Shown here one piece after another: positions 566 to 33,332 of a stretch of 33,332 nucleotides of DNA (the stretch's first letter is position 1; each line of letters starts with the position of its first letter). Under the pieces are notes generated by a model. It saw nothing but the letters and a program-made list of their open reading frames with translations. It was not told the origin of the DNA and ran no database searches. The stretch lies in contig JAQXHB010000020.1 of the NCBI GenBank assembly GCA_029007015.1, positions 1-33,332 of the forward strand. Direction: 5' to 3'. The position numbers were made by a program, and so were the translations under genes. This stretch comes from Bacillota bacterium. GTDB lineage: Bacteria > Bacillota > Clostridia > Oscillospirales > Acutalibacteraceae.

Positions 566-1750
566 ATGCTTTCACAAAGGAATTTGGCCCTCGGCCGCCG
601 TCGCTCGTCGATACGCGAACTGTTTGAGTACGGCCGCCGCCGCAAGGCGGAGATCGGTGAGGAAAATGTATTTGATTTCAGCATCGGCAATCCGAGCGTG
701 CCTACGCCCGAGCATGTCGGCAGTGTCATGCGGCGTCTCATTGATGAGTGCGACCCGGTGCAACTGCACGGATACACTTCGGCCGCCGGCGATGCAGGCG
801 TGCGCGCCGCGGTGGCGGATAACCTTAACCGGCGGTTTGGCGGGTCGGTGAGCCCCGATTTAATCTACATGACCTGCGGCGCGGCGGCGTCGCTGACCAT
901 CACGCTGTCGGCCATTATGTGCGAGGGCGACGAGGTGATAGTGCTGACGCCCTGTTTCCCCGAGTACCGCGTATTCATCGAGTCGGCGGGCGGCCGCGTT
1001 GTAGAGGTGCCGTGTGACGGCGACCTTCAGCCCGATATCGGGGCGATGGCCGCCGCACTGACCGATCGCACCAAAGCGGTCATCATCAATTCGCCCAATA
1101 ACCCGACCGGCGCCGTTTATACCCGAGAGCGCCTCGAGGGTCTGGCCGAGTTGCTCGGCAGCCGCAAGAATCCGATATACCTCATATCGGACGAGCCCTA
1201 CCGCGAACTTACATACGGCGAGGCAGAGGTGCCGTTTGTGCCGAGCTTTTACAGACGCACGGTCATCTGCTACTCTTTCAGCAAGTCGCTCTCTCTGCCG
1301 GGCGAGCGCATAGGCTACATTTGCGTCTCACCCGAGATGGATGAGGCACGCGACCTGTTTGATGCTGTGTGCGGTGCCGGACGGTCGCTCGGATTTGTCT
1401 GCGCCCCCAGTCTGCTTCAGCGCACCGTGGCCGAGTGCTTGGACGACACCGCCGATATCAATGTATATCGTCGCAACCGCGACCGCCTTTATACGGCGCT
1501 GACCGATATGGGATACTCTGCGGTGCACCCCGACGGCGCCTTTTACCTGTTCTTGAAAGCGCTCGAGGACGACGCCGTTGCCTTTTGCGAGAGGGCAAAA
1601 AGGTATGAACTGCTGCTGGTGCCGAGCGACGATTTTGGCTGCCGAGGATATGCCAGAGTGTCATACTGCGTCACGCCCGAACAGATTGAGCGGGCACTGC
1701 CCGCCTTTGAGGCACTGTATAATGAATATGAAAGCGAGAAAACAAAATGA
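566..1750 (+). CDS. PLP-dependent aspartate/aromatic aminotransferase (AspB family)
   Basis: A fold-type I, class I/II aminotransferase of 394 aa, the usual length. Visible landmarks are the SPNNPTG substrate-loop motif (176-182), the DEPY motif whose aspartate (209) contacts the PLP ring nitrogen, the PLP-binding lysine in SFSKS (Lys240), and the ERIGY arginine (Arg248) that binds phosphate. The N-terminal GRRRSSIRELFEYG stretch followed by FSIGNPS is typical of the Clostridial AspB-like subgroup. As first gene of a phenylalanine/tyrosine operon it probably transaminates phenylpyruvate and 4-hydroxyphenylpyruvate, or prephenate. The exact substrate cannot be read from sequence. The start at 566 has GGTGGTGA upstream, and the 3' end overlaps the next gene by 4 bases (ATGA), so the two are probably translationally coupled. 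Confidence 0.9.
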   Translation: MLSQRNLALGRRRSSIRELFEYGRRRKAEIGEENVFDFSIGNPSVPTPEHVGSVMRRLIDECDPVQLHGYTSAAGDAGVRAAVADNLNRRFGGSVSPDLIYMTCGAAASLTITLSAIMCEGDEVIVLTPCFPEYRVFIESAGGRVVEVPCDGDLQPDIGAMAAALTDRTKAVIINSPNNPTGAVYTRERLEGLAELLGSRKNPIYLISDEPYRELTYGEAEVPFVPSFYRRTVICYSFSKSLSLPGERIGYICVSPEMDEARDLFDAVCGAGRSLGFVCAPSLLQRTVAECLDDTADINVYRRNRDRLYTALTDMGYSAVHPDGAFYLFLKALEDDAVAFCERAKRYELLLVPSDDFGCRGYARVSYCVTPEQIERALPAFEALYNEYESEKTK

Positions 1751-2835
1751 CTGAACTTGAAAAGGCTCGCGCCGAGATAAACGCCGTTGACAGCGAGATG
1801 GCACAACTGTTCTGCCGCCGCATGAAGGCGGTGCGCGCGGTGGCTGAATATAAGCGCGAGCGCGGACTGCCCGTCAGCGACCCGACCAGAGAGACAGAGG
1901 TCATAGCGCGCAACGCCTTATTGGTTGAGGACGAGGAACTGCGCTCCTATTTTGTCACATTTCTTGAAAACAATATGGCGGTGTCGCGCCGTTATCAGCA
2001 CCGCCTGCTTGAGGGCATGCGCGTCGCTTTCAGCGGCGTCAAGGGTGCGTTTGCCGAGATAGCGGCTGTACGCGCTATGCCCGATGCGACCGCCGTGCCG
2101 TACGGCGACTTTCAGTCGGCCTACGACAGTGTTGTGCGCGGTGAATGCGACTGCGCCATATTGCCCATCGAAAACAACATCGGCGGCGATGTCGGTCAGG
2201 TCATGGACCTCGCCTTTTTCGGACCGTTAAGCATAAGCGGCGTGTATGATGTGGAAATCGTGCAAAATCTGCTGGCTGTCAAGGGTGCGTCTATTGGAAA
2301 TATCAGGCAGGTTATCAGCCATCCGCAGGCCATCAGCCAGTGTGCCGAGTATATTCGACGGCACGGGTTTGAGTCGATAGAGGCGGTTAACACCGCAGTT
2401 GCGGCGCGCACGGTAGCCGAAAGCGGCCGTACCGATATAGCCGCCATCGGCAGTGATGAGGCGGCCGCGGAGTACGGACTGCAAAAACTGGAGGGCGGCA
2501 TCAACCGCAGCAATAAGAACACTACGCGCTTTGCCGTCTTTACGCGTCTGCCGGTGCAGTCGGTAACGGCCGGCGGCCGATTCATAATGACCTTCACGGT
2601 AAATAATGAGGCCGGCTCGCTCGGACGCGCCGTGGCCATAATCGGTGACCACGGCTTCAACCTGCGCGCGCTCAAGAGCCGCCCCACCAAATCCCTGCAA
2701 TGGGACTACTACTTTTATGTCGAGGGCGACGGAAACATCAGCAATGACAACGGCAGTGCCATGTTGGCTGAACTGGCCGGTGTGTGCAACAGCGTGCGCG
2801 TGCTCGGTTCTTATGACAGAGAGATAAGTCTTTGA
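1747..2835 (+). CDS. pheA: Bifunctional chorismate mutase / prephenate dehydratase (P-protein)
   Basis: A 362-aa protein with three modules. Residues 1-90 form an AroQ-type all-helical chorismate mutase domain (opening LEKARAEINAVDSEMAQLFCRRM). Residues 91-265 are the prephenate dehydratase domain, with PIENN (140-144), SHPQA (191-195) and the catalytic TRF motif (260-262). Residues from about 278 form an ACT domain, where LKSRP (309-313) corresponds to the phenylalanine-binding ESRP motif of the family. It converts chorismate to prephenate and then to phenylpyruvate, committing carbon to phenylalanine, and the ACT domain suggests feedback inhibition by phenylalanine. It overlaps the aminotransferase gene by 4 bases and precedes aroB by 16. 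Length and domain order match the standard P-protein. Confidence 0.95.
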   Translation: MTELEKARAEINAVDSEMAQLFCRRMKAVRAVAEYKRERGLPVSDPTRETEVIARNALLVEDEELRSYFVTFLENNMAVSRRYQHRLLEGMRVAFSGVKGAFAEIAAVRAMPDATAVPYGDFQSAYDSVVRGECDCAILPIENNIGGDVGQVMDLAFFGPLSISGVYDVEIVQNLLAVKGASIGNIRQVISHPQAISQCAEYIRRHGFESIEAVNTAVAARTVAESGRTDIAAIGSDEAAAEYGLQKLEGGINRSNKNTTRFAVFTRLPVQSVTAGGRFIMTFTVNNEAGSLGRAVAIIGDHGFNLRALKSRPTKSLQWDYYFYVEGDGNISNDNGSAMLAELAGVCNSVRVLGSYDREISL

Positions 2836-2851
2836 TATGGGGTGTTCATAA

Positions 2852-3862
2852 ATGATAATCACAGTATCTGCCGCCGCGCATTCCTACGACATATTGCTCG
2901 AGCGCGGCAGTCTTAAACGCGCGGCTGAACAGTTTGATTTGGACAGACGCGTGCTCATTGTTACCGATACCGGCGTGCCGGCGGAGTATTCCGAGCGGGT
3001 GGCCGCACTTTCTGCCCGCCCCTTTGTCGAGGTTATTGAGCAGGGCGAGCAGAGCAAAAGCATGCAGTCGCTTGAGCGTTTGCTCAGCCGCATGGTAGCC
3101 GAGGGATTTACTCGCAGTGACTGCGTGGTGGCCGTCGGCGGCGGCGTGGTCGGTGATTTGGCCGGCTTTGCGGCCGCGTGCTATATGCGCGGAATTGATT
3201 TTTACAATATACCGACCACCGTTCTATCGCAGGTCGATTCATCCATCGGCGGCAAGGTGGCGGTTGACTTTGAGGGGTACAAAAATATCGTCGGCGCGTT
3301 TTATCCGCCGATGGGCGTCATAATTGACCCCGATGTGCTGTCTACTCTGTCGGAGCGGCAGATTGCAAACGGCCTTGCCGAGAGCGTCAAAGCCGGCCTG
3401 ACCGGGGACAGCGAGTTGTTTGAGTTGTTTGAGCGCGGCGACATTGCCGAGAATATGGATAAGATTATCGAGCGCTCCCTGCTGTTCAAGCGGTCGGTGG
3501 TCGAGCGCGACGAGCGTGAGGGAGGCTGTCGTCGTATACTCAACTTTGGTCACACCGTTGGCCATGCTATCGAGAGTGAGTGTGGGCTGAGCCGCTATTA
3601 TCACGGCGAATGTGTCGCGCTGGGCATGCTCCCAATGTGCTCGCCCGATGTTCGCGCCCGATTGCTCAATGTGCTGAAAAGGCTTAATTTGCCCACACAT
3701 TCGGGGTGCAATATTGATAATTTGATTGAAAATATGCGCCATGACAAAAAGTGCTACGGCGATGACATTCATGCGGTGTTCGTTGACCGAGTAGGTCAAT
3801 GCGAAGTGCGCAGTATGCCGTTTGAGCAATTTGCCGCGCAGATAAAGGGGGCGGATATATAA
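2852..3862 (+). CDS. aroB: 3-dehydroquinate synthase
   Basis: Second step of the shikimate pathway: NAD- and metal-dependent conversion of DAHP to 3-dehydroquinate in the cytoplasm. The nucleotide-binding GGGVVGDLAGF (97-106) and PTTVLSQVDSSIGGK (121-135) motifs are intact. The three metal ligands are visible as Glu177 (LAESVK), His234 (FGHTVGH) and His251 (YYHGE). At 336 aa it is slightly shorter than the roughly 360-aa enzymes of Enterobacteria, as in many Clostridia. Start at 2852 is preceded by GGGGTG. Its stop codon shares one base with the aroC start (TAATG), so coupling is likely. Confidence 0.96.
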   Translation: MIITVSAAAHSYDILLERGSLKRAAEQFDLDRRVLIVTDTGVPAEYSERVAALSARPFVEVIEQGEQSKSMQSLERLLSRMVAEGFTRSDCVVAVGGGVVGDLAGFAAACYMRGIDFYNIPTTVLSQVDSSIGGKVAVDFEGYKNIVGAFYPPMGVIIDPDVLSTLSERQIANGLAESVKAGLTGDSELFELFERGDIAENMDKIIERSLLFKRSVVERDEREGGCRRILNFGHTVGHAIESECGLSRYYHGECVALGMLPMCSPDVRARLLNVLKRLNLPTHSGCNIDNLIENMRHDKKCYGDDIHAVFVDRVGQCEVRSMPFEQFAAQIKGADI

Positions 3863-4956
3863 TGAAGAATACATTTGGAAGCAGTGTTGCGCTGAGCGTA
3901 TTCGGTGAAAGCCACGGCGCGGCCGTCGGCGCCGTACTTGACGGCATGGCCGCAGGCGTTAAGGTGGACGAGCATTTTATCCGCTCGCAACTGACACTCA
4001 GGCGTCCGGCCGGCAAGATATCGACCTCGCGCGTGGAGGAGGACAAATTTGTCATTGAGAGCGGCGTCTATAACGGCCGCACGACCGGCACACCCATTTG
4101 TATCGTTATACCCAACGAAAACACCCGTTCAGGTGACTATTCCGCGACAAGGGCGCTCGCGCGTCCCGGTCATGCTGATTATACTGCCTACTGCAAATAT
4201 CACGGGTTCGAGGACTACCGCGGCGGCGGACATTTCAGCGGCCGCGTGACTGCCGGCGTTGTGGCGGCAGGAGCCATAGCGATAGCCGCTCTGCGTGAAA
4301 AGGGAATATACATCGGTACTCATATCAGCCGCTGCGGCGGCGTCAGCGATCGGCCGTTTGGCGATATGGCCGCAGATATCGCGGTGGTAAATGCCAAGGC
4401 TTTTGCCGTGCTCGACAGTGCGTCCGAGCAAAATATGCTCGCGGCCATCGAGGCGGCCGCCCGCGACGGCGACAGTGTCGGCGGCGTGCTTGAGACGGCC
4501 GTTACCGGCCTGCCCGAGGGGGTAGGAGAGCCGTTTTTTGACACATTGGAGAGTGTGCTGGCGCACGCGCTCTTTGCGGTGCCGGCCGTCAAAGGGGTTG
4601 AGTTCGGCAGTGGCTTTGCGCTGGCTGATATGCGCGGCAGTGCGGCCAACGACCCGTTTGCAATTAAGGGCGGCCGCGTCACCACCGTTACCAATAATAA
4701 CGGCGGCATCAACGGCGGCATCACCAACGGCATGCCGGTCATATTCCGCTGTGCAGTCAAGCCGACTCCGTCGGTTTCGCTTGTCCAGCAGACGGTCAAT
4801 ATCATGGACGGCACCGATGCCGAACTGGCTGTTCGCGGTCGGCATGACCCATGTATTGTTCACCGTGCGCGGGTGGTGGTGGACAGTGTCGTGGCTGTCG
4901 CTCTGTGCGATATGCTGGCGATGAGATTCGGCACCGACTGGCTGGTAAATATATGA
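3862..4956 (+). CDS. aroC: Chorismate synthase
   Basis: Last common step: FMN-dependent elimination of phosphate from EPSP to give chorismate. The N-terminal FGESHG signature with its conserved histidine (His18), the RPGHADYT segment (101-108) followed by GGGHFSGR (121-128), and the C-terminal RGRHDPCIVHRA segment are all present. At 364 aa the length is normal. GGGHFSGR replaces the GGGRSSAR form seen in Proteobacteria. The gene shares a base with aroB upstream and overlaps the next gene by 4 bases (ATGA at 4953), in the middle of a tightly coupled operon. Confidence 0.96.
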   Translation: MKNTFGSSVALSVFGESHGAAVGAVLDGMAAGVKVDEHFIRSQLTLRRPAGKISTSRVEEDKFVIESGVYNGRTTGTPICIVIPNENTRSGDYSATRALARPGHADYTAYCKYHGFEDYRGGGHFSGRVTAGVVAAGAIAIAALREKGIYIGTHISRCGGVSDRPFGDMAADIAVVNAKAFAVLDSASEQNMLAAIEAAARDGDSVGGVLETAVTGLPEGVGEPFFDTLESVLAHALFAVPAVKGVEFGSGFALADMRGSAANDPFAIKGGRVTTVTNNNGGINGGITNGMPVIFRCAVKPTPSVSLVQQTVNIMDGTDAELAVRGRHDPCIVHRARVVVDSVVAVALCDMLAMRFGTDWLVNI

Positions 4957-6182
4957 AATACGGACTGATAGGCGAGAAACTGGGCCACAGTTTTTCGCGT
5001 GAGATACATATGCGTCTGGCCGACTACGACTACGAGTTGTGCGAAATTGCGCGCGACCGACTGGACGGCTTCATGTGCCGCCGCGATTTTGCGGCCATCA
5101 ATGTGACCATACCGTACAAGCAGGCGGTGATGCCTTATCTTGACTGCATTGACTCAGCGGCCGAGCGCATCGGCGCCGTCAACACGGTGGTCAACCGCGA
5201 CGGTGTACTGTACGGGTACAACACCGATTTTGCCGGCATGAAGGCACTCATTTTACACTGCGGAGTTCAAATTGACGGCGCCCGAGTGCTCGTCCTCGGC
5301 AGTGGCGGCACTTCGCACACGGCGCTGGCTGTATGCGAGAGTATGCGTGCGGCGAGCGTTCACCGCGTCTCGCGCACCGGCCGCGACGGATGTATAACCT
5401 ATGACGATGCCTACCGTATGGGCGCCGATGTAATAATCAACACCACACCCTGTGGCATGTACCCGAATGTCGGCGGCATGCCGATAGACCTTGACAGGCT
5501 GGGCGGTGTGCGTGGCGTTGTCGACGCCGTGTATAATCCGCTCAGGACAGCGCTTATATGCAATGCGCGCGCACGCGGCATCACCGCCGAGGGCGGTCTG
5601 TATATGCTGGTTGCTCAGGCGGCCGCGGCGGTCAAGCATTTTATCGGGCGCGATGTTGACGCCGACCGAATTGAGCGCGTCTACCGTCAACTGATGAACG
5701 AAAATCAAAACATTGTGCTGGTGGGCATGCCGTCGAGCGGCAAATCGACCGTAGGCCGCGCGCTTGCCGAGCGTATGGGGCGACGGTTTATCGACACCGA
5801 TGATGAAATTGTCGCTCGCACCGGGCGGAGCATAACCGATATTTTTGAGCATGAGGGCGAAGGTGCTTTCCGCGACATCGAGAGTGAGGTCATTGCTCAG
5901 TTGGCGCCCATTCGCGGCGCTGTGATAGCCACCGGCGGCGGTGCGGTACTGCGCGGGCAAAATTTGCTTTGCCTGAGGCAAAACGGTCGCATATATTACA
6001 TTGACCGGCCGCTTGAGCAACTGACCGGTACGCCCGACCGACCGTTGGCGCGCGACACCGACGCTCTGCGCAGGCGATATGAGGAGCGACACGACATTTA
6101 CCTCGCCGCCGCCGACTGCGTCATACCGTCGACCACCGTCGAGCGCAACGCCGATAGTATTGCAGAGGAGTTTTTAAAGTGA
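4953..6182 (+). CDS. aroE-aroK: Fused shikimate dehydrogenase - shikimate kinase (AroE-AroK)
   Basis: One 409-aa frame carries two enzymes. The track begins it at 4851, but the ATG at 4953 overlaps the aroC stop (ATGA) and opens with the family start MKYGLIGEKLGHS. Residues 1-247 are shikimate dehydrogenase: NVTIPYK (catalytic Lys56), GYNTDFAG (Asp92), the NADP loop GSGGTS (116-121) and YNPLRT (194-199). Residues from about 252 are shikimate kinase: Walker A GMPSSGKST (258-266), the DTDD shikimate-binding motif (281-284), FRDIE with Arg307, GGG (328-330), and RPLARD. There is no stop between them, and the internal ATG (5694) has no ribosome binding site. The fusion joins consecutive steps, 3-dehydroshikimate to shikimate to shikimate-3-phosphate. 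All key residues of both halves are kept. Confidence 0.93.
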   Translation: MKYGLIGEKLGHSFSREIHMRLADYDYELCEIARDRLDGFMCRRDFAAINVTIPYKQAVMPYLDCIDSAAERIGAVNTVVNRDGVLYGYNTDFAGMKALILHCGVQIDGARVLVLGSGGTSHTALAVCESMRAASVHRVSRTGRDGCITYDDAYRMGADVIINTTPCGMYPNVGGMPIDLDRLGGVRGVVDAVYNPLRTALICNARARGITAEGGLYMLVAQAAAAVKHFIGRDVDADRIERVYRQLMNENQNIVLVGMPSSGKSTVGRALAERMGRRFIDTDDEIVARTGRSITDIFEHEGEGAFRDIESEVIAQLAPIRGAVIATGGGAVLRGQNLLCLRQNGRIYYIDRPLEQLTGTPDRPLARDTDALRRRYEERHDIYLAAADCVIPSTTVERNADSIAEEFLK

Positions 6183-6616
6183 AGATACTGGTAATCAACG
6201 GCCCCAACCTGAATATGCTGGGCATACGCGAGCCGGACATTTACGGCTCCGATACATACGATAAACTGTGCCGCATGATAAACGCCCACTGTGACGAAAT
6301 GGGAGTGCAGGCAGAGATATATCAATCCAATCATGAGGGCGATTTGATAGACAAGATACAGAGTGCATACGGCACGGCCGACGGCATTGTCATCAATCCG
6401 GCGGCATACACCCACACCAGCGTTGCACTGCTCGATGCGCTCAAGGCGGTCGGCCTGCCGACGGTGGAGGTGCACATTTCCGATGTGTCGGCGCGTGAGG
6501 ATTTCAGACAGATAAGTTATGTTCGCGCCGCTTGTGAGCGCACCGTATGCGGACACGGATTTGCCGGCTACACCGAGGCGATAGATTATCTTGTAAATGA
6601 GAGGACACCTAAATGA
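6179..6616 (+). CDS. aroQ: Type II 3-dehydroquinate dehydratase
   Basis: Third step of the pathway: dehydration of 3-dehydroquinate to 3-dehydroshikimate by the small dodecameric type II enzyme. At 145 aa it has the expected length. Diagnostic features are NGPNLNMLG (7-15), the catalytic tyrosine in REPDIYG (Tyr22), NPAAYTH (73-79) and EVHISD with His99. It starts with GTG at 6179, overlapping the aroE-aroK stop by 4 bases (GTGA), and overlaps aroA by 4 bases. The less frequent start codon may lower its translation relative to its neighbours. That is an inference only. Confidence 0.95.
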   Translation: MKILVINGPNLNMLGIREPDIYGSDTYDKLCRMINAHCDEMGVQAEIYQSNHEGDLIDKIQSAYGTADGIVINPAAYTHTSVALLDALKAVGLPTVEVHISDVSAREDFRQISYVRAACERTVCGHGFAGYTEAIDYLVNERTPK

Positions 6617-7806
6617 GGGCGGTCATACACGCAGGACGCGCCGAGGGCACGCTCGCCGCACCGCCGTCAAAAAGCATGGCGCATCGCTTGCTCATCTGCG
6701 CGGCTCTCTCGCAAGGAGTGAGCACGGTGCGCGGTGTCGACATGTCTGAGGATATTGCGGCGACGGCCGACTGCCTGCGCGCTCTTGGGTCGGATATAAC
6801 GCTCAGCGGCGACACAGTGACGGTCGGCGGTATTGACCGCGGCATCCGCAGTGCCGTGCTTGACTGCCGCGAAAGCGGCAGTACGATGAGGTTTATGTTG
6901 CCCATTTGTCTTGCACTCGGCGGCCGCTACCAACTGCGAGGCAGCCGACGGTTGATGCAGAGAAACATGGCCGTTTACGAGCAACTGTGCGCCGAGAACG
7001 GTATAGAATACCGTCAAAGCGACTGCACAGTTACCGTCGACGGGCAACTCAAACCCGGCACATTTTGCGTGCGCGGCGATATCAGCAGTCAGTTCATCAG
7101 CGGTATCATGTTCGCCTCTCTGCTGATGGACGGCGAGAGCAGAGTGCAACTAACTACGGCGCTCGAGAGCCGTCCGTATGTTGATATGACCGTGTCGGCC
7201 ATCAGGCAGTTCGGCGGCTCGGTCGGCCTGCTCGGTGACCGATACACTGCCAACGGCGGAGGTATGCGCGCATGTGACTGTACCGTTGAAGGGGACTACT
7301 CCAATGCCGCGTTTTTTGATGCGCTTAATCTCACCGGAGGCTCGGTCGCTGTGAGCGGACTGCTTCCCGACAGCCTGCAGGGAGATAAGATATACCGTCG
7401 GCATTTTGATGCCATCTGCCGCGGCGGCGCCGAAATAGACCTGACCGATTGCCCCGACCTTGGCCCGCTGCTGTTTGCGCTGGCGGCGCTCAAGGGCGGC
7501 GCACGATTTACCGGCACCCGCCGGTTGAGGATAAAAGAGAGCGACCGCGTGGCCGCAATGGCCGAAGAACTTATAAAGTTCGGTGTGACCGTCACGGCCG
7601 GCGATAACAGCGCCGTTGTCAGCGGGCGGCTGGGTCAGCCGAGCGAGATGCTCTGCGGACACAATGACCACCGTGTGGTTATGGCGCTGGCCACTCTGTG
7701 TACGGTGACCGGCGGCACGGTTGACGGTGCAGAGGCGGTCAGCAAGAGTCTGCCCGACTATTTTGAACGGCTGAAATCACTTGGAATAAGGGTTGAACTA
7801 ATATGA
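6613..7806 (+). CDS. aroA: 3-phosphoshikimate 1-carboxyvinyltransferase (EPSP synthase)
   Basis: Sixth step: transfers enolpyruvate from PEP to shikimate-3-phosphate. The 397-aa protein opens with the PPSKSMAHR motif (Lys20, Ser21, Arg25 contact substrate). It then has SGSTMRF (88-94), the SSQF substrate loop (158-161), the catalytic aspartate in DCPDLGP (Asp282), KESDR (308-312) and NDHR. The SGSTMR form, in place of the LGNAGTAMR loop of E. coli-type class I enzymes, is common in Bacillota. Sensitivity to inhibitors cannot be judged by eye. It overlaps aroQ by 4 bases (ATGA at 6613) and tyrA by 4 bases. Confidence 0.95.
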   Translation: MRAVIHAGRAEGTLAAPPSKSMAHRLLICAALSQGVSTVRGVDMSEDIAATADCLRALGSDITLSGDTVTVGGIDRGIRSAVLDCRESGSTMRFMLPICLALGGRYQLRGSRRLMQRNMAVYEQLCAENGIEYRQSDCTVTVDGQLKPGTFCVRGDISSQFISGIMFASLLMDGESRVQLTTALESRPYVDMTVSAIRQFGGSVGLLGDRYTANGGGMRACDCTVEGDYSNAAFFDALNLTGGSVAVSGLLPDSLQGDKIYRRHFDAICRGGAEIDLTDCPDLGPLLFALAALKGGARFTGTRRLRIKESDRVAAMAEELIKFGVTVTAGDNSAVVSGRLGQPSEMLCGHNDHRVVMALATLCTVTGGTVDGAEAVSKSLPDYFERLKSLGIRVELI

Positions 7807-8663
7807 CACTTGGCAAAAATACAGACATACTTATCGTTGGCCTTGGACTTATCGGCGGCAGTTACGCCGATGGGCTGACCAAGGGCGGATACAAGGTGCG
7901 TGCCATCACCGCCGACAAGGGCGACATCGACTACGCCGTCGGCCGCGGAATGATAACCGGCGGCTCTGACGAGGTCACCGCCGACACTGTCGGTACGGCC
8001 GATATCATCATATTTGCTCTTTATCCGCATATCTTTGTTGAGTGGATAGAGAAGTACGGTCATCTGATAAAACCGGGCGCCGTCATCACCGATGTTACCG
8101 GTGTCAAGAGCGCCATTGTCGATAAGGTGCAGTCCATTCTGCCCGACGGTGTCGAGTTTATCGCCGCGCACCCTATGGCCGGCAGAGAGGTCAGCGGGGT
8201 AAAAAACGCGAGCGCCGACATATTCCGCGCCGCCAACTACATAGTCGTGCCGACCGAGCGCAACACCGACGGGGCGATTGAGATTTGCAAACAACTGGGG
8301 CACATTCTGGGGTTCAAGGACATTTCGGTGCTGTCGCCGGAGGAGCATGACGAAATGGTAGCATTTCTCTCACAGTTGACCCACTGCATTGCCGTAACGC
8401 TGATGTGCTGTAATCAGAGCGAGGGGCTTGAGAGATACACCGGCGACTCCTTTCGCGATTTGACACGCATTGCGCGCATCAATGATGAGATGTGGAGCGA
8501 ACTGTTTTTGCTCAACCGCGACAAGTTGCTGTACGAAATGGAGCAGTTCAGCCAGGCGTTCAGCCAACTGCGCTGCTATATGATAAAGGGCGACCGCGAG
8601 GGCATACGGCAAATGATGCGTACATCGGCTGAGCGCCGCCGACTGTTTGATAAGATTGATTGA
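7803..8663 (+). CDS. tyrA: Prephenate dehydrogenase
   Basis: Tyrosine-branch enzyme that oxidatively decarboxylates prephenate to 4-hydroxyphenylpyruvate with NAD(P). The Rossmann loop GLGLIGGS (13-20) is followed by the HPMAG motif with the conserved histidine (123-127) and a C-terminal helical dimerisation domain containing SQLTH and FRDLTRIA. At 286 aa it is a stand-alone dehydrogenase: there is no chorismate mutase part, which is fused to pheA instead, and no C-terminal ACT domain. Feedback control by tyrosine through an ACT domain is therefore not expected, and control may fall more on the leader attenuator. It overlaps aroA by 4 bases. Confidence 0.94.
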   Translation: MTLGKNTDILIVGLGLIGGSYADGLTKGGYKVRAITADKGDIDYAVGRGMITGGSDEVTADTVGTADIIIFALYPHIFVEWIEKYGHLIKPGAVITDVTGVKSAIVDKVQSILPDGVEFIAAHPMAGREVSGVKNASADIFRAANYIVVPTERNTDGAIEICKQLGHILGFKDISVLSPEEHDEMVAFLSQLTHCIAVTLMCCNQSEGLERYTGDSFRDLTRIARINDEMWSELFLLNRDKLLYEMEQFSQAFSQLRCYMIKGDREGIRQMMRTSAERRRLFDKID

Positions 8664-26332: not shown

Positions 26333-26361
26333 TTGACTTTTTAACGGCAAGTTGATATAAT
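26333..26361 (+). promoter_or_regulatory. Promoter of the first beta-propeller lipoprotein gene
   Basis: TTGACT (26333-26338), exactly 17 bases, then a perfect TATAAT (26356-26361), about 42 bases before the ATG. Apart from this and the groEL terminator, I see nothing else definite in the 224-base gap. Confidence 0.88.
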
Positions 26362-26409: not shown

Positions 26410-28587
26410 ATGTCTTTTATCAAGAGATGTTCATATATAGCGGCGGCAGCGGCGCTGGTGCTGTGCGCTTCGTGCGGCACTCGGCAGTCAGAGTCATCAT
26501 CCACTCTGTCATCGTCTGTATCGAGCAGTCAGTCGTCGGCAGTCTCGTCGGCCGCTGAAACGCAGACGCCAAAGTATACGCTTGGCAACAAGTATTATAA
26601 ATCCGATGTTTGGCGCAGCGTGCCGCTTGTCACCGCAAACGGCGCGGCGCGGTCGATGTCGGGCGAGGGCGGAGTGACCGTCACCGACATTGCTTTCGCC
26701 CCAAGCAACGGCAAAATTGTCTTTGCCGCGACCGAGAGCGGCGGCATTTACCGCTCAAAGAACGGCGGCGCAAAATGGGAACCGTGCAACATCGGCTTTT
26801 CTGCGGCCGGTGCCTCCTGCATCGCGGTCGACCCGAAAAACAGCAACCGCGTGCTGGCTGTGGGCACCTCTTTTGAGGGGTGCGAGCAAAACGGACTTTA
26901 TCTGTCGCTTGATGGCGGCTCAAGTTGGAAACAGGTGCTCAGTTGCCCCATCGGCGGCACCGAATTTAGAAATCAACTGGCGTACGATGTGTCGTCATAC
27001 AGCGCAGGCAAAAAACTGACGGCCACTGTCTATTGGTCGCGCGAGGGAGACCTCGGCGCTGACGGCACTACCGCTGAGCCATCACTGTACAAGTCGACCG
27101 ACGGCGGCGCAAGTTGGAAACAGATGGCGAACACATCGGCGGCCGGCGGCTGCGAGATAGCCGTTGTCCGCTCGAGCGGCGATGTGCTGTGCGGCAGTTC
27201 GGACGGCCTTTACAAGTCGACCGACGGCGGCAACACCTTCAAGATGATACTCGACAAGCCGGTCGCGTCTGTGTGCGTCTCGGCCGCAGAGGCCAAGAGC
27301 GCCTTTATTCTGATTGCCGACGGCCTATACAAATCGACCGACGGCGGCAACACTTTTACGCGAGTTGGAGACAGCACATCCGCTCAAAATGCGCGCAGCC
27401 TTGCCGTCAGCGACTTCGACGCCGCGGTAATGGTACTGCAAAGCAGCAGCGGGACATCCTATTATTCCGCCGACGGCGGCAAGAATTGGCAAGGGTCGGT
27501 CAAGGACACTTCCGGCAGTTTTTTGCCCTATGTGCACCGCACTGCTGTTTTTGCACTGCACCCCACCGACAAAAATGCGGTGCTGACCACAGGCGGAGAT
27601 TACATCATGAAATCAAAGGACGGCGGCAGGCGGTATACTCTGTCAAACAACGGAGTTTGCGGCAACTACGGCGCCGGACAGATCAGCCATAATATAAACA
27701 ATAACAACCTTATATATATTCCGTCGCAGAATTACAACGGCGCATATTCGACCGACGGCGGCAAGGTGTGGAACTACATTCAGTGGTACAAACCGGCCGG
27801 CGGCAACACCTACGGCGGATATGTGCTCAACAAGAACACGGTCATAACATGCCTGCGCGACACCGACAATGTTTACAAGGGTGGCGATGTCTATTATATA
27901 GCCGCCACATTTGACGGCGGCCGCAATATAAGCGTGTTCACCGACTGCTTGGTCAATTCGGGCCAGATGACCTGTGTCACCGGCCTCAAGGGCAATGACA
28001 AGGTGGCCTTTGTCGGTGAGTGGCGCACCGAGGACGGCGGCAAAACATGGGATAATATGTCTGGGTGCAGTAATGTGCTGACATATAACTACCGCACCGG
28101 CGCGCTCATAGGCAGCTATAACAACACGGTCGTGACATCGACCGACGGCGGCAAAACCTGGAAAAAGATGGCCGCCTGCGACAGAAATATAATTGATGTC
28201 GCATACAACGCCGACAAAGGCACACTGTATGTTGTCACCGTAAGCGGCCTTTTTCGCATGGAGAAGGGGCGGTCGGTTTTTGAGCACATCAGCATCGGCG
28301 CCGTCGGCATACGCAGTGTATGCGTTGACCCCGCCCACAGCGGAGTGGTCTATATTGGGTGCAGCGGCGTCCGCTCGCAGAGTGATATGTCGGTACTGCG
28401 CTCAAGTGATGACGGCTTGACATGGACCAACCTGACGCGCACGGCCGGCGACAAGCGCAGCGGCGCCGACGGCGGGCGTGAGGCGCTGTCGGTGCGCGTT
28501 GACCCCAAGACAGGGGAGTTGTGGGTGTCGACGGCCGGACACGGCGTTTGGAAATTGCCGTATATGTCTGATAAAACGGCCAAATAA
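26410..28587 (+). CDS. Asp-box (BNR-type) beta-propeller lipoprotein, GH74-like architecture, function unknown
   Basis: A 725-aa protein with a signal peptide and a lipobox-like CASC at 19-22 (Cys22), followed by a Ser-rich linker to about residue 55. The -3 position is Cys rather than Leu, so lipidation is slightly less certain than for the third paralog. The body carries about 12 Asp-box motifs of the form S-x-D-G-G-x-x-W/F (STDGGASW, STDGGNTF), spread over the full length as in a pair of beta-propellers. The size and the N-terminal GEGG...GGIYRS...W layout recall GH74 xyloglucanases. At the place where the two paralogs and GH74 enzymes have an aspartate (TDxGG), this protein has glutamate (Glu109, TESGG). 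It may bind or cleave a glycan at the cell surface, but no enzyme activity can be claimed. A 44-base gap leads to the next paralog. Confidence 0.8.
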   Translation: MSFIKRCSYIAAAAALVLCASCGTRQSESSSTLSSSVSSSQSSAVSSAAETQTPKYTLGNKYYKSDVWRSVPLVTANGAARSMSGEGGVTVTDIAFAPSNGKIVFAATESGGIYRSKNGGAKWEPCNIGFSAAGASCIAVDPKNSNRVLAVGTSFEGCEQNGLYLSLDGGSSWKQVLSCPIGGTEFRNQLAYDVSSYSAGKKLTATVYWSREGDLGADGTTAEPSLYKSTDGGASWKQMANTSAAGGCEIAVVRSSGDVLCGSSDGLYKSTDGGNTFKMILDKPVASVCVSAAEAKSAFILIADGLYKSTDGGNTFTRVGDSTSAQNARSLAVSDFDAAVMVLQSSSGTSYYSADGGKNWQGSVKDTSGSFLPYVHRTAVFALHPTDKNAVLTTGGDYIMKSKDGGRRYTLSNNGVCGNYGAGQISHNINNNNLIYIPSQNYNGAYSTDGGKVWNYIQWYKPAGGNTYGGYVLNKNTVITCLRDTDNVYKGGDVYYIAATFDGGRNISVFTDCLVNSGQMTCVTGLKGNDKVAFVGEWRTEDGGKTWDNMSGCSNVLTYNYRTGALIGSYNNTVVTSTDGGKTWKKMAACDRNIIDVAYNADKGTLYVVTVSGLFRMEKGRSVFEHISIGAVGIRSVCVDPAHSGVVYIGCSGVRSQSDMSVLRSSDDGLTWTNLTRTAGDKRSGADGGREALSVRVDPKTGELWVSTAGHGVWKLPYMSDKTAK

Positions 28588-28631
28588 ATGTGTTGATTAC
28601 CGCTTCGGCGGATAAATAGAGGTGTTATTCT

Positions 28632-30710
28632 ATGACAGACAAGTATTTACAGTATGTAAAAAGCAAGTATCTGGACGGACATTCTGACGGGCCTTATTTT
28701 GACACCGATGTATGGGTGCCGGTTCCGCTCATCGGGAAAAAGCAGCGCGATGAGGGCTACACCGGCGGCGAGGGCTGTCAGTGGTGCGAGCAGATTGTGT
28801 TCGACCCGGTGGACGGACACTACGCGCTGTTCGGCAATGACTGCGCCGGCATGTACCGCTCGGGCGATGAGGGCAAAACTTGGGAGAATGCCACCCTCGG
28901 CTTTATCGGCCGCAGTGCGAGCAATTTCACCATCGACCCCAATAACACTTCGCGCGTCTATTGCACCTCCGGACGCTCGGCCCGTGAAAGCACCGGCATA
29001 CATGTGTCTGATGACGAGGGCCGTTCATGGGAGCCGCTCTTTATGAATCCGCACGAGCACGACCATGTCTACTACAAGCGCCTCGCCATTGATGAAACCT
29101 CTTTTGATGCCGAATTGGGCGTTAGCAGTACCGTTTACTGGCTCAGCCTTTGCATAAATGGCAAGGAGGATGAGCCGCACGGACTGTTCAAAACCACCGA
29201 TGGCGGTGCCAGTTGGCACCTGCTGGATGGGACGACTGACTTTGCCGGCAACGAAATGGTCTGCGCCGCTAACGGATACCTTTACATACGCACCGCTGAT
29301 GCTATATACCGCTCAAAGGACGGCGGCAGTACATTTGATAAAATATACGAGGGTGAGATGGGCTCTATATGTGTCATCCGCACCCGACCCGAGAGTGTTT
29401 ACGCAATGGTCAGAAAGGTCGGCCTGATAGTGTCGCACGACTGCGGCGACCACTTCGAGGTCATGACCGAGGGCGAGTTTGACTATGAGTTTCCCAATCA
29501 TCTCGCCGTTTCGCCCGCCGACCCCGACTACATGGTTATGGAGGATGACCACTATGTCGCAGGCGACAGCAATAACCTCTGGCGAATGGTGCAATATTAC
29601 TCCCACGACGGCGGCCGCACATGGCACGAGTCGGAGCGCGACCGCAAAACCGGCTTCTTTGTGCCGTACAACCCCCGCCAGACCATAACTTCATTTCACC
29701 CGCTGGATAAAAACATCGCGCTGTCCCTCGGCGGCGATGCTATAATGCGCTCAACCGACGGCGGCAAGACATTTGTAAACTCGTCCGACGGCTATAACGG
29801 ACTGTGCATCGGTGCCACGGCCAGTTTCAACGCCCACAACGGTAATCTGGTTGCCATTCCGGCGCAGGACTATAACGGCGGCTTTTCGGTTGACGGCGGT
29901 TATACATTTACATATGTAAAGTGGCTCGACAGACCTTGGGGCGGCCACGCATACGGCTCCTACTGCCTTGATGAGCAGACGGTCATATCCATATCCTCCA
30001 ACACATGGAGAAAGGTGGGCGAGATGTTTGTTGCCGCTACATTTGACGGCGGAGAGACGGTAAATATCTTTTCCGATTGCAAAGTAAACTCCGACCGCTG
30101 CTTCTGCTGCGGCTCGGCGCGCAACAGCGATATCGCCTTCTGCGGCAATTGGCGCACCACCGACCGCGCCCGTTCATGGACCGAAATGACCGACTGCGAC
30201 GCCGTGTTTAGTGCTGATCCGGTGGATGGCACTCTTGTAGGCGTTCACGGCACTACCGATGTGGTCATTTCGCGCGATGACGGCGCCTCATGGCAGGTGG
30301 TCGCGCAGTACAAGGGCGGCATACGCGACGCCGCATACAACCGCGACACCAACCGGCTGTTTGTAGCGCTTGATGACCATCTCTTTGAGGTTGACATCGA
30401 GACAGGCGATATGGTCGAGCGGGATACCGGCACAATCACCCTCGTCAGCGTCGCAATCGACCCCGTCAACAGCAAGGTTATGTATGTCTGCGGCAACAAT
30501 GACTTCGACTTTAACTTCAACTCGGTAATGCGCTCGGTCGACGGCGGACTAACATGGTCGACCCTCAAGCGTCAGCCGGGCGACGGACGCACCGGCCCCG
30601 ACGGTGCCAGAAAGCCGGGACTCATCCGCGTCAATCCGACCACCCGCGAGTTGTGGGCGTTTACCTGGTGCTATGGCGTATGGAAGATTGCTCCGCCCCA
30701 GGGATTTTGA
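28632..30710 (+). CDS. Asp-box beta-propeller protein without signal peptide (cytoplasmic paralog)
   Basis: A 692-aa paralog of the genes on either side. It starts MTDKYLQYVKSKYLDG, with no hydrophobic segment, and no in-frame extension is possible, because GAGGTG sits right before the ATG at 28632 and the previous gene ends 44 bases upstream. It should therefore be cytoplasmic, and its many cysteines (for example DRCFCCG) fit that. It has about 12 Asp-box motifs at matching places, shares the GYTGGEGCQW and GDGRTGPDGA motifs with the third gene, and keeps the aspartate at the GH74-type position (Asp70, NDCAG). It is probably in one transcript with the first gene. A role on imported oligosaccharides is conceivable, but this is inference. 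Confidence 0.8.
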   Translation: MTDKYLQYVKSKYLDGHSDGPYFDTDVWVPVPLIGKKQRDEGYTGGEGCQWCEQIVFDPVDGHYALFGNDCAGMYRSGDEGKTWENATLGFIGRSASNFTIDPNNTSRVYCTSGRSARESTGIHVSDDEGRSWEPLFMNPHEHDHVYYKRLAIDETSFDAELGVSSTVYWLSLCINGKEDEPHGLFKTTDGGASWHLLDGTTDFAGNEMVCAANGYLYIRTADAIYRSKDGGSTFDKIYEGEMGSICVIRTRPESVYAMVRKVGLIVSHDCGDHFEVMTEGEFDYEFPNHLAVSPADPDYMVMEDDHYVAGDSNNLWRMVQYYSHDGGRTWHESERDRKTGFFVPYNPRQTITSFHPLDKNIALSLGGDAIMRSTDGGKTFVNSSDGYNGLCIGATASFNAHNGNLVAIPAQDYNGGFSVDGGYTFTYVKWLDRPWGGHAYGSYCLDEQTVISISSNTWRKVGEMFVAATFDGGETVNIFSDCKVNSDRCFCCGSARNSDIAFCGNWRTTDRARSWTEMTDCDAVFSADPVDGTLVGVHGTTDVVISRDDGASWQVVAQYKGGIRDAAYNRDTNRLFVALDDHLFEVDIETGDMVERDTGTITLVSVAIDPVNSKVMYVCGNNDFDFNFNSVMRSVDGGLTWSTLKRQPGDGRTGPDGARKPGLIRVNPTTRELWAFTWCYGVWKIAPPQGF

Positions 30711-30732
30711 TGCAGTTAATTAGACCATATCA

Positions 30733-30756
30733 CCAAAATAATTGGCTCTATTTTGG
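30733..30756 (+). repeat. Perfect inverted repeat between the second and third propeller genes
   Basis: CCAAAATA (30733-30740), eight bases, TATTTTGG (30749-30756). No T tract follows, so it is a poor terminator. Its position 24 bases upstream of a promoter -35 would suit a regulator binding site or a weak mRNA-end hairpin. Confidence 0.6.
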
Positions 30757-30779
30757 GCAATGCGTCAAACGGTTATCTC

Positions 30780-30808
30780 TTTACTTTGACTGATATTTGC
30801 TGTATAAT
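30780..30808 (+). promoter_or_regulatory. Promoter of the third propeller gene
   Basis: TTTACT (30780-30785), 17 bases, a perfect TATAAT (30803-30808). The same TTTACT-17-TATAAT arrangement recurs before the next lipoprotein gene. Confidence 0.8.
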
Positions 30809-30846
30809 TACATGTAAAGACTAAAGTTTTACGGAGGAAAATATTC

Positions 30847-33072
30847 ATGAAGAACTTTGCTAAAATATTTTCGGCTGTTCTTTGTACCGCCATGATTCTT
30901 GCATCGTGCGGCGGAGGTGGACAGCCGACCTCGTCAGGCGCCGACTCGTCTGATACACCGGTATCGTCGGTTGCGTCCGAAACTTCATCTGCAGCCGCAC
31001 CCACATCCAACAGCAAACTGTTCAGCACTGATGTGTGGCAGGCGGTGCCCATGGTCAGCAAGTCGATGCTGAACAGCGGTTACACCGGCGGCGAGGGTTG
31101 CCAGTGGCCGAGTTGCATCTCATATGACCCTGTCGAGGGCAAGTATGCCTACATGGGCACCGATGTCGGCGGAGTGTTCCGCTCGACCGACGGCGGAAAT
31201 AATTGGGAGCCGTCTACAATCGGACTTGATACTTGCGGTGCCGTGGCTGTTGCGTCCGACCCCAATAACATCAAGCGCGTCGTACTCATCGGCTCATCCA
31301 ATGACCGCTCGGGCGTATTTCTTTCGACCGACGCTGGCGAAACATGGGAGAGGGTGTATAAAACCTACCTTTCCCGCGCGCACGACTACCGAGAGCAAAT
31401 TGCCTTTGACGAGTCAAGTAACGACAAGTCGCTCGGCGGCAGTAAGATAGTTTACTGGCTGCGCGCAAACGAGGAGGCCAATGTCATCTCGTCCAAGGGA
31501 ATCAAAGTCGGTCTTTACAAGTCGACCGACGGCGGCAAAACTTGGAATCATGTCAGCGGCACCGAGAAATATGCAAGCGGCTGGCTGGCAATCGACACCA
31601 AGGGCAATCTGTTCATCGCCACAAAAAGCGGTATATTCAAATCGGCAGACAAGGGCGCTACCTTTAAGCAAGTGTTTACCACTGCCACCAACAGCCTGTG
31701 CACCATACGCACCTCAGGTTATCAGAACAATGTCTATGCCATGACCAATGATGGACTCTATGTGTCCACCAACAACGGCAACAGTTTCTCAAAGGTTACC
31801 ACTAAAATGCCTGCAGGCGTATCTAAGAACTACACATATCTGGAAGTCAGCCCCCTCAACCCGAAGAAGATGATTATGCAGAATGACACCATGAGTATTG
31901 GCGCCGGTTATTCGGTTCCGTGCTACTATTCGACCGACGGCGGCAAGACTTGGAATCAATCGACAACCGACACAACCACCAATGTTTGGGCTCCGTACAA
32001 TGTCCGTCAACGCATGTCGTCATGGAATCCCAAGAAGGAAAATGAAATTCTCACTTTCGGCGGCGACCTGATTTACAAATCGACCGACGGCGGCAAGACA
32101 TACAAAAACTCATCTCAAGGTTACAACGGCATATTTATTGGCAGCAACTTTTCCTTTAATATCAACAATCCCAAGTTGGTGGCTATCGCCAGCCAGGACT
32201 ACAACGGCGGCTTCTCGACCGACGGCGGCAAGACATGGACATATGTCAACTGGTCAGGCGCGGGCTGGGGCGGTTTCACCTACGGTGCATACGCCCTGAC
32301 CGAAAAGACCGTTGTCACCGGCGTGTCAAATAATTGGGCGACCAGCAGCGACAGCGTTTTGACCATTTGCGTAACTTTCGACGGAGGCAAGACGGTTGTG
32401 CGCACCGGTTGTGTTGTTGAAGGTGCTAAAGTGGCCATCGGCGCCAAGGGCAACAATAACATCGCCTTCTTCGGTGAGTGGAGAACGACCGACGGCGCCA
32501 AAACATGGGTCAAAATGGACGGCTGTGTAGGTGTTATGTACTGCGACTCTAAGACCGGCCGACTGTTCGGCGTCAACGGCGAGGCAGGCAAGTATGACAT
32601 CGTTGTGTCCAATGACAACGGCGCTTCGTGGAAGGTCATATTCAAAAATGCCGGATACATTGATGACATTTGCTACAATAACAAGAGCAACAAAGTGTTC
32701 TACGCCGGCGGCGCAAGCACTATCAAGTACTTCAAGTGGACCGACGGTCAGGCCGAACCATCTTATATTTGGTATGATACAGGCGCCGGAGGTACATGGG
32801 GTGTTTGTTGCGACCCGACCAACAATGACATCATGTATGCGACTATGCACACGGTTGATAATTATGACCGCCAGAATGTCATTCGCTCGCTCGACGGCGG
32901 CAAAACATGGACCGGCCTCTGCCGTGAGCCGGGCGACGGACGCACCGGCCCCGACGGTGCCAACCAGGCCATGCGTTGCGAGGTCAATCCGCTTACACAC
33001 GAGTTGTTTGTCGCCACTCACTGCAACGGAATGTGGAAGATTTCAGGCCCTCCGTCTGAGTATCTGAAATAA
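30847..33072 (+). CDS. Asp-box beta-propeller lipoprotein, GH74-like architecture, function unknown
   Basis: A 741-aa protein with a clear lipoprotein signal: hydrophobic stretch, then ILASC with Cys21 as the lipidated residue, and a Gly/Ser/Thr-rich linker to about 55. About 12 Asp-box motifs (STDGGKTW and relatives) follow, at positions matching the two upstream paralogs. The N-terminal block GYTGGEGCQW...MGTDVGGVFRSTDGG, with Asp106, is the part most like GH74 enzymes, where an aspartate in RTDIGG is catalytic. It ends with GDGRTGPDGA and a short MWKI strand that may close the propeller. Surface binding or cleavage of a polysaccharide is a reasonable guess and no more. It has its own promoter and a strong terminator, with ACGGAGGAAAA as ribosome binding site. 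Confidence 0.82.
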   Translation: MKNFAKIFSAVLCTAMILASCGGGGQPTSSGADSSDTPVSSVASETSSAAAPTSNSKLFSTDVWQAVPMVSKSMLNSGYTGGEGCQWPSCISYDPVEGKYAYMGTDVGGVFRSTDGGNNWEPSTIGLDTCGAVAVASDPNNIKRVVLIGSSNDRSGVFLSTDAGETWERVYKTYLSRAHDYREQIAFDESSNDKSLGGSKIVYWLRANEEANVISSKGIKVGLYKSTDGGKTWNHVSGTEKYASGWLAIDTKGNLFIATKSGIFKSADKGATFKQVFTTATNSLCTIRTSGYQNNVYAMTNDGLYVSTNNGNSFSKVTTKMPAGVSKNYTYLEVSPLNPKKMIMQNDTMSIGAGYSVPCYYSTDGGKTWNQSTTDTTTNVWAPYNVRQRMSSWNPKKENEILTFGGDLIYKSTDGGKTYKNSSQGYNGIFIGSNFSFNINNPKLVAIASQDYNGGFSTDGGKTWTYVNWSGAGWGGFTYGAYALTEKTVVTGVSNNWATSSDSVLTICVTFDGGKTVVRTGCVVEGAKVAIGAKGNNNIAFFGEWRTTDGAKTWVKMDGCVGVMYCDSKTGRLFGVNGEAGKYDIVVSNDNGASWKVIFKNAGYIDDICYNNKSNKVFYAGGASTIKYFKWTDGQAEPSYIWYDTGAGGTWGVCCDPTNNDIMYATMHTVDNYDRQNVIRSLDGGKTWTGLCREPGDGRTGPDGANQAMRCEVNPLTHELFVATHCNGMWKISGPPSEYLK

Positions 33073-33088
33073 TCACAAAATTTAATTT

Positions 33089-33123
33089 ATGCACCATCTG
33101 CACAAAAGCAGATGGTGCATTTT
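33089..33123 (+). terminator. Intrinsic terminator of the third propeller gene
   Basis: TGCACCATCTGC (33090-33101) pairs perfectly with GCAGATGGTGCA (33108-33119), extended by one A-T pair at 33089/33120, and is followed by a short T run. Confidence 0.92.
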
Positions 33124-33152: not shown

Positions 33153-33181
33153 TTTACTTTTATTATGTGCACATGTATAAT
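33153..33181 (+). promoter_or_regulatory. Promoter of the lipoprotein gene at the right edge
   Basis: TTTACT (33153-33158), 17 bases, a perfect TATAAT (33176-33181), about 55 bases before the start codon. Confidence 0.8.
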
Positions 33182-33236: not shown

Positions 33237-33332
33237 GTGAAAAGAATTTTGACATCGGTCATTCTGCTTACGATGGTCTTTGCGCTGGCACTGTCGGCTG
33301 CTTCCTGCAAGAGCAGCGGCACAAACACCACC
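33237..33332 (+). CDS. Lipoprotein, N-terminal signal only (runs off the right edge)
   Basis: Not in the ORF track. Beginning at GTG 33237, with AAGGAG 10 bases upstream, 32 codons run to the window edge without a stop. They encode a classical lipoprotein signal: MKRIL, a hydrophobic core, then SAASC with Cys24 as the lipidated residue, and the start of a Ser/Gly/Thr linker. In this kind of Clostridial locus such a protein is often the solute-binding part of a sugar ABC transporter, or another propeller paralog, but the visible part cannot decide. The ATG at 33227 is out of frame and too close to the ribosome binding site. Confidence 0.75.
   Translation, partial: MKRILTSVILLTMVFALALSAASCKSSGTNTT

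Follow-up and report, generated by a model that had tools for sequence, protein, structure and literature searches.

A tandem array of GH74-related two-propeller proteins with lipoprotein and leaderless members in an Acutalibacteraceae genome

This study concerns a 33,332-nucleotide stretch of DNA (the window; contig JAQXHB010000020.1 of assembly GCA_029007015.1, here contig C20 of genome G000) that carries three tandem genes for Asp-box propeller proteins, labeled A, B and C in their order. The genes belong to a real, lineage-restricted, GH74-related glycan-uptake locus of Gram-positive type. The array, which lies next to groEL, is best explained by tandem expansion from a two-propeller family related to GH74. 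In the scheme we propose, A would capture a polysaccharide at the cell surface, C would cut it, a solute-binding lipoprotein (SBP) with its permeases would bring in the oligosaccharides, and B would finish them in the cytosol. We assign the whole scheme a probability of about 0.5.

The gene array and its relation to GH74

The three open reading frames (ORFs) and two codons of C discussed below are:

26410..28587, + strand: protein A, 725 aa lipoprotein, GH74-like, probably catalytically dead (E109, N441); ORF, Pfam PF15902/PF02012, substitutions unique among 19 relatives
28632..30710, + strand: protein B, 692 aa, leaderless, GH74-like, D70 and D413 kept; ORF, in-frame upstream stop, AlphaFold, Foldseek
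30847..33072, + strand: protein C, 741 aa lipoprotein, GH74-like, D106 and D451 kept; ORF, AlphaFold, Foldseek
31162..31164, + strand: codon of C D106, aligned with the GH74 catalytic Asp (CtXGH74A D70, OXG-RCBH D35); alignment, motif profile
32197..32199, + strand: codon of C D451, probable counterpart of the second GH74 catalytic Asp, in an SQDYNGG motif; motif likeness, placement unsettled by alignment

A and B are separated by 44 nt. A preliminary description had called the proteins tandem paralogs of 692-741 aa with about 12 Asp boxes in matching order, and this was borne out. Each protein contains 11 strict Asp boxes at matching positions, and one or two degenerate boxes bring the total to about 12. 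By comparison, 500 shuffled controls averaged 0.3-0.4 strict boxes, with a maximum of 3-4. The proteins align over their whole length, with 42% (B) and 37% (A) identity to C. The N- and C-terminal blocks described earlier as common to all three are seen in this alignment as GEG and GD.R.G.DG ... WK, respectively. Pfam placed the trio in the Asp-box propeller families PF15902 (Vps10) and PF02012 (BNR), above cut-off. The NCBIfam model NF045728 (F510_1955 family glycosylhydrolase) also represents an Asp-box propeller, but its 246 positions gave 152, 101 and 115 bits for the trio, under the curated cut-off of 175.

The resemblance to GH74 endo-xyloglucanases, which had been noted without a family assignment, was examined by profile and structure comparisons. 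When a profile of 19 relatives was compared with the PDB, the best 17 matches were all GH74, with CtXGH74A at the top (E 5.6e-37), and sialidases were far below. AlphaFold models were generated for B and C only, from seven-row alignments. The predicted local distance difference test (pLDDT) and predicted TM-score (pTM) were 80.1 and 0.82 for C, and 81.1 and 0.77 for B. Among PDB chains searched with Foldseek, GH74 proteins occupied ranks 1-25 for C and 1-24 for B, with TM-scores mostly of 0.63-0.69 and identities of 12-18%. The next chains in rank, from unrelated propellers, scored orders of magnitude (several) lower. Both models align nearly full length with the proteins of GH74, in which two tandem seven-bladed propellers form a cleft. 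The modeled fold is almost certainly shared with GH74, and common descent of B and C with that family is well supported.

The above-threshold Pfam matches to Vps10 and BNR would also suit GH33 sialidases or Vps10-type receptors. We regard either identity as extremely unlikely. The RIP motif found near the N-terminus of GH33 sialidases is missing from A, B and C, and sialidases rank well under GH74 by profile. Sortilin, the single ten-bladed Vps10 propeller, gives a TM-score of about 0.2, versus 0.63-0.69 for GH74, despite the PF15902 match.

To place the family relative to GH74, it was aligned jointly with 13 GH74 proteins, with true GH74 genes drawn from the same bacterial class. Identity was 15-25% between the family and GH74, at least 28% among GH74 proteins and at least 31% within the family. 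Since the family falls outside the identity range of GH74, it is treated here, on the alignment, as a GH74-related sister group or separate lineage. The earlier likeness to GH74 therefore stands for fold and ancestry, but the proteins do not belong to GH74 in the ordinary sense. A different genome of the class carries, on one contig, two divergent relatives of GH74 (L136 and L137, G314:C58); these are nearer to GH74 (23-28% identity) than to the propeller family.

Catalytic positions and cell location

The CtXGH74A structures 2cn2 and 2cn3 differ at D70, which is Ala in 2cn3, and this residue aligns with the Asp of a TDVGG motif in the propeller family. The first catalytic Asp is present in B (D70) and C (D106), while A has Glu. 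A GH74 motif profile that spans 6 residues ahead of this site and 14 behind it ranked the site first in 19/19 members; with other windows it was top-ranked in about half of them. As the second catalytic Asp of GH74 we take D480 of CtXGH74A. In a close CtXGH74A homolog, the residue 410 positions after D70 is an Asp within a VGDIVGF motif. The SQDYNGG motif of the family resembles the second-Asp motif of GH74, and on this likeness its Asp is the probable counterpart.

Asp occupies each of the two sites in 18/19 relatives, and the sole exception at both is A, which has Glu109 (codon GAG at 26734) and Asn441 (codon AAT at 27730). Of the 47 columns at which the other 18 rows do not vary, A deviates at 6 (G42S, Q50V, G68A, D70E, P295D and D413N, numbered as in B). 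Any other member deviates at 0-4, and B at none. Partial or additional members from other contigs (L110, L117 and L009) keep the Asp wherever the motif was found. Because both catalytic-position aspartates are lost, A is probably not a hydrolase. Judged from its sequence it is fairly likely to be an inactive pseudo-enzyme, and probably serves as a non-catalytic surface binder. C and B, we think, are likely to be catalytic.

A and C each have a leader with a lipobox (Cys22 in A, Cys21 in C). In B, an in-frame stop codon lies just a few codons before the ATG and rules out a leader in that frame. The preliminary description was therefore right that the outer two proteins are lipoproteins and that the middle one has no signal peptide. 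On balance we lean slightly toward a cytosolic role for B, with imported sugars as its substrates. Both Asp are retained by leaderless members in three genera: in G000 (B), in G052 (L117:14245-16311) and in G064, which has three copies (L112:6405-8495, L112:13466-15541 and L114:9827-11857). In-frame stops lie upstream of the leaderless genes. A single old cytosolic clade of all leaderless members was rejected by the approximately unbiased test (p 0.001 with five rows, 0.013 with four). Leader state, counted without L111 (leader state unclear), changes at least five times on the tree, several forks of which are poorly supported. Given the lack of a single clade and this minimum, leaderless forms seem to have arisen more than once.

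The array might also be lineage noise, that is, drifting duplicates in which leader loss in B and active-site loss in A are steps of decay and only C matters. Propeller copy number does change often (3+2 in G000, 4-5 in G052 and 11 in G064), as does leader state, with at least five changes on a poorly resolved tree. But the three ORFs all retain their full length and their Asp boxes, leaderless copies retain both Asp in three genera, and B does not deviate at any invariant column. We consider decay very unlikely.

Other relatives carry additional domains: dockerins on members from G064:C37 and G052:C23, and SLH domains on L011. Dockerin and cohesin matches were present in all three genomes. 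One of the dockerin proteins (L117:8554-12966, G052:C23) is 1470 aa long and combines the propeller region with an Ig-like match and, at its C-terminus, a dockerin; its gene neighbours the G052 array and is read from the opposite strand.

A different reading is that there are no enzymes here, and that A, B and C are all glycan- or protein-binding propellers whose aspartates bind ligand or support the fold, forming a capture set that feeds the SBP. The large divergence from GH74, the unproven second Asp and the binder-like state of A all fit such a set, as does the lack of a recognised glycosidase among the neighbouring genes scanned. Yet an Asp stands at the GH74 catalytic position in 18/19 relatives, and the one protein that has lost it has lost both. 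A binding protein in the cytosol, as B would then be, is hard to explain, and dockerins are usually, though not exclusively, on enzymes. We judge a set made up only of binders to be unlikely and prefer catalytic roles for B and C.

The downstream locus and its distribution

The window ends in 141 nt that recur identically at the start of contig C68 and have no other match in the assembly, as expected if C20 and C68 are neighbouring contigs of one assembly graph. The overlap holds the start of the SBP gene. This gene, promoter-like sites and a terminator-like repeat are listed below; the total of promoter-like sites in the scan was not above chance.

26333..26361, + strand: promoter-like TTGACT-17-TATAAT upstream of A; promoter scan
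30780..30808, + strand: promoter-like TTTACT-17-TATAAT upstream of C; promoter scan
33091..33118, + strand: terminator-like perfect 11-bp inverted repeat followed by ATTTT, after C; read directly from the sequence, absent from the scan's listing
33153..33181, + strand: promoter-like TTTACT-17-TATAAT upstream of the SBP gene; promoter scan
33237..33332, + strand: first 96 nt of the SBP gene, 449 aa on C68 (L167:46-1395); SBP_bac_1

Unlike A, C and the SBP gene, B had no promoter-like site before it in the scan. Base composition does not support a foreign origin of the array (54.9% GC, versus 55.1% in the rest of the window).

On C68 the first SBP gene is followed by genes for a 966-aa SBP, two UgpA/UgpE-like permeases, a 510-aa protein, a Yip1 protein and a DUF5696 protein. 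Another two permease genes and a gene of the Na+/H+ antiporter family come after these. The sugar transporter and glycosidase genes suspected to the right of position 33332 were thus half realized: C68 supplied the SBP and permeases. An SBP and two permeases adjoining glycan-active proteins is the Gram-positive layout for glycan uptake by an ATP-binding cassette (ABC) transporter. No ATPase gene was found among the genes scanned at the locus, and lack of a local ATPase gene is common in Gram-positives (PMC4780118). In G052 the gene order after the array is that of C68. In G064 SBP genes follow the array, which lies near groEL as in the window. A block comprising the 510/519-aa protein, Yip1 and DUF5696 is conserved between pairs of ABC permeases (L167:6382-11048 and L118:7819-12450). 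No paper on DUF5696 was found.

Strong propeller homologs were found in 2/100 sampled genera of the bacterial family, and one further genome had a weak fragment only. No homologs at 1e-30 were detected in 59 other relatives of a second sample. Apart from the own genome, only G052 and G064 among the 100 genera had close homologs (E at or below 1e-35) of the first SBP, and these are also the two that gave strong propeller matches. When GTDB species were scanned, the top three loci came from cattle colon, goat colon and one more Clostridia metagenome-assembled genome. A plasmid search yielded remote Asp-box proteins only.

The nearest relatives of C are further copies in its own genome, on contigs C64 (54%) and C34 (56%). 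Both copies (L111:1297-4035 and L110:3-1799) have an extra N-terminal domain of a kind not recognised, and the one on C34 is truncated where the contig stops. The shikimate (aro) cluster of G064 contains a gene for a propeller lipoprotein (L115:6955-9093, G064:C2) beside an aroB-like gene; no gene of this kind interrupts the aro cluster of the window (about 566-8663). About 10 SBP-lipoprotein copies are spread over G064 contigs C7, C9, C10, C23 and C28 (L112, L114, L171-L174). Several of those outside the array have no recognised permease-like gene alongside, and the copy on C10 is interrupted by a TAA. These extra copies may serve as binding proteins or share permeases.

Proposed roles, substrate and comparison with known systems

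In the proposed scheme A, having probably kept the fold but lost the catalytic-position Asp, would capture polysaccharide at the surface. C would cut it in the cleft between its propellers using the Asp pair. The SBP would take up the oligosaccharides for import by the UgpA/E-type permeases, and B, with the same Asp pair, would cut the imported oligosaccharides in the cytosol. The order of these steps is one that we infer.

Several observations weigh against the scheme. Neither hhalign nor the joint MAFFT alignment places the second Asp (B D413, C D451), and the motif profile ranks it first in few members only. The fold of A was reached through its 37% identity to C, A itself not being among the models, and the missing leader of B is no proof of a cytosolic role. 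The scan of neighbouring genes revealed no member of a recognised glycosidase family, and GH31 was not detected in the own genome, which is 94% complete. The co-occurrence of SBP and propellers speaks for the scheme, since two randomly picked genera would coincide in 1/4950 cases, but that figure ignores genome kinship and was obtained with an SBP query from G064. DUF5696 was above cut-off in 44/100 genomes of the bacterial family, nearly all of them without propellers. Since the cluster is so widespread it says little, and the DUF5696/966-aa-SBP transporter cluster was rejected as proof of a functional link. The glycan capture and breakdown locus proposed earlier is upheld in outline, with a sugar transporter in place, but with one of its three propellers probably no hydrolase and no recognised glycosidase beside them.

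By analogy with GH74, the substrate would by default be a plant hemicellulose. The lack of a detected GH31 leaves the usual xyloglucan pathway incomplete, so that another hemicellulose is as likely and xyloglucan itself is doubtful. We considered whether the proteins are true xyloglucanases, that is divergent GH74 enzymes in a xyloglucan-uptake locus like that of Ruminiclostridium cellulolyticum. The GH74 fold, the first catalytic Asp and one GH3 gene in the own genome agree with this, and ABC import of oligosaccharides is a known Gram-positive strategy (PMC4780118). However, the genome lacks a detected GH31, the locus has no GH31/GH42/GH3 cluster and the family lies outside the GH74 identity range. 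We find true xyloglucanases improbable, and favor the capture, cutting and import scheme acting on a hemicellulose.

Like the GH74 xyloglucanases (CtXGH74A 2cn2/2cn3, OXG-RCBH 1sqj, NkGH74 6p2l and XccXeg74 7kn8), the proteins have whole-length tandem propellers, Asp boxes and the first catalytic Asp motif (T/A)D(I/V)GG. They differ in low identity (12-18% in structure alignments, 15-25% in the joint alignment), in a second Asp motif that is merely similar, in the mixture of lipoprotein, leaderless and apparently inactive paralogs within the array, and in a genome without a detected GH31 companion. Utilisation loci of Bacteroidetes pair a surface glycan-binding protein with a surface hydrolase, and the split into surface binder and surface cutter would be similar here. 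Here, though, uptake is of the Gram-positive ABC type rather than by SusC/D, and binder and cutter are of one ancestor. The R. cellulolyticum xyloglucan system (PMC4780118) also combines surface breakdown, ABC import through an SBP and cytosolic finishing, with dockerin/cohesin genes in the genome. In our array the surface proteins are lipoproteins, and the candidate for the cytosolic step is a leaderless paralog of the surface enzyme, which would partly fill that place. The "new type" of locus suggested earlier is thus new in its arrangement and division of roles, but not in its fold. Titles and abstracts from a literature search on lipoprotein or paralogous GH74 sets offered nothing evidently relevant.

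A bolder possibility, which we hold only tentatively, is a new GH family sister to GH74. Inside individual arrays, one ancestral enzyme would have diversified into an enzyme for the surface, another for the cytosol and a surface binder without activity. Leaderless copies would have emerged repeatedly, a dedicated family of SBPs would have grown in parallel (11 propellers and ~10 SBPs in G064), and the target would be a glycan other than xyloglucan.

The propeller family is a candidate new CAZy family beside GH74. If the proposed roles are correct, a natural paralog lacking both Asp stands beside active ones, which would make the roles of the two residues directly testable. Capture, surface cutting and cytosolic finishing would then have been built from a single enzyme fold in a Gram-positive bacterium.
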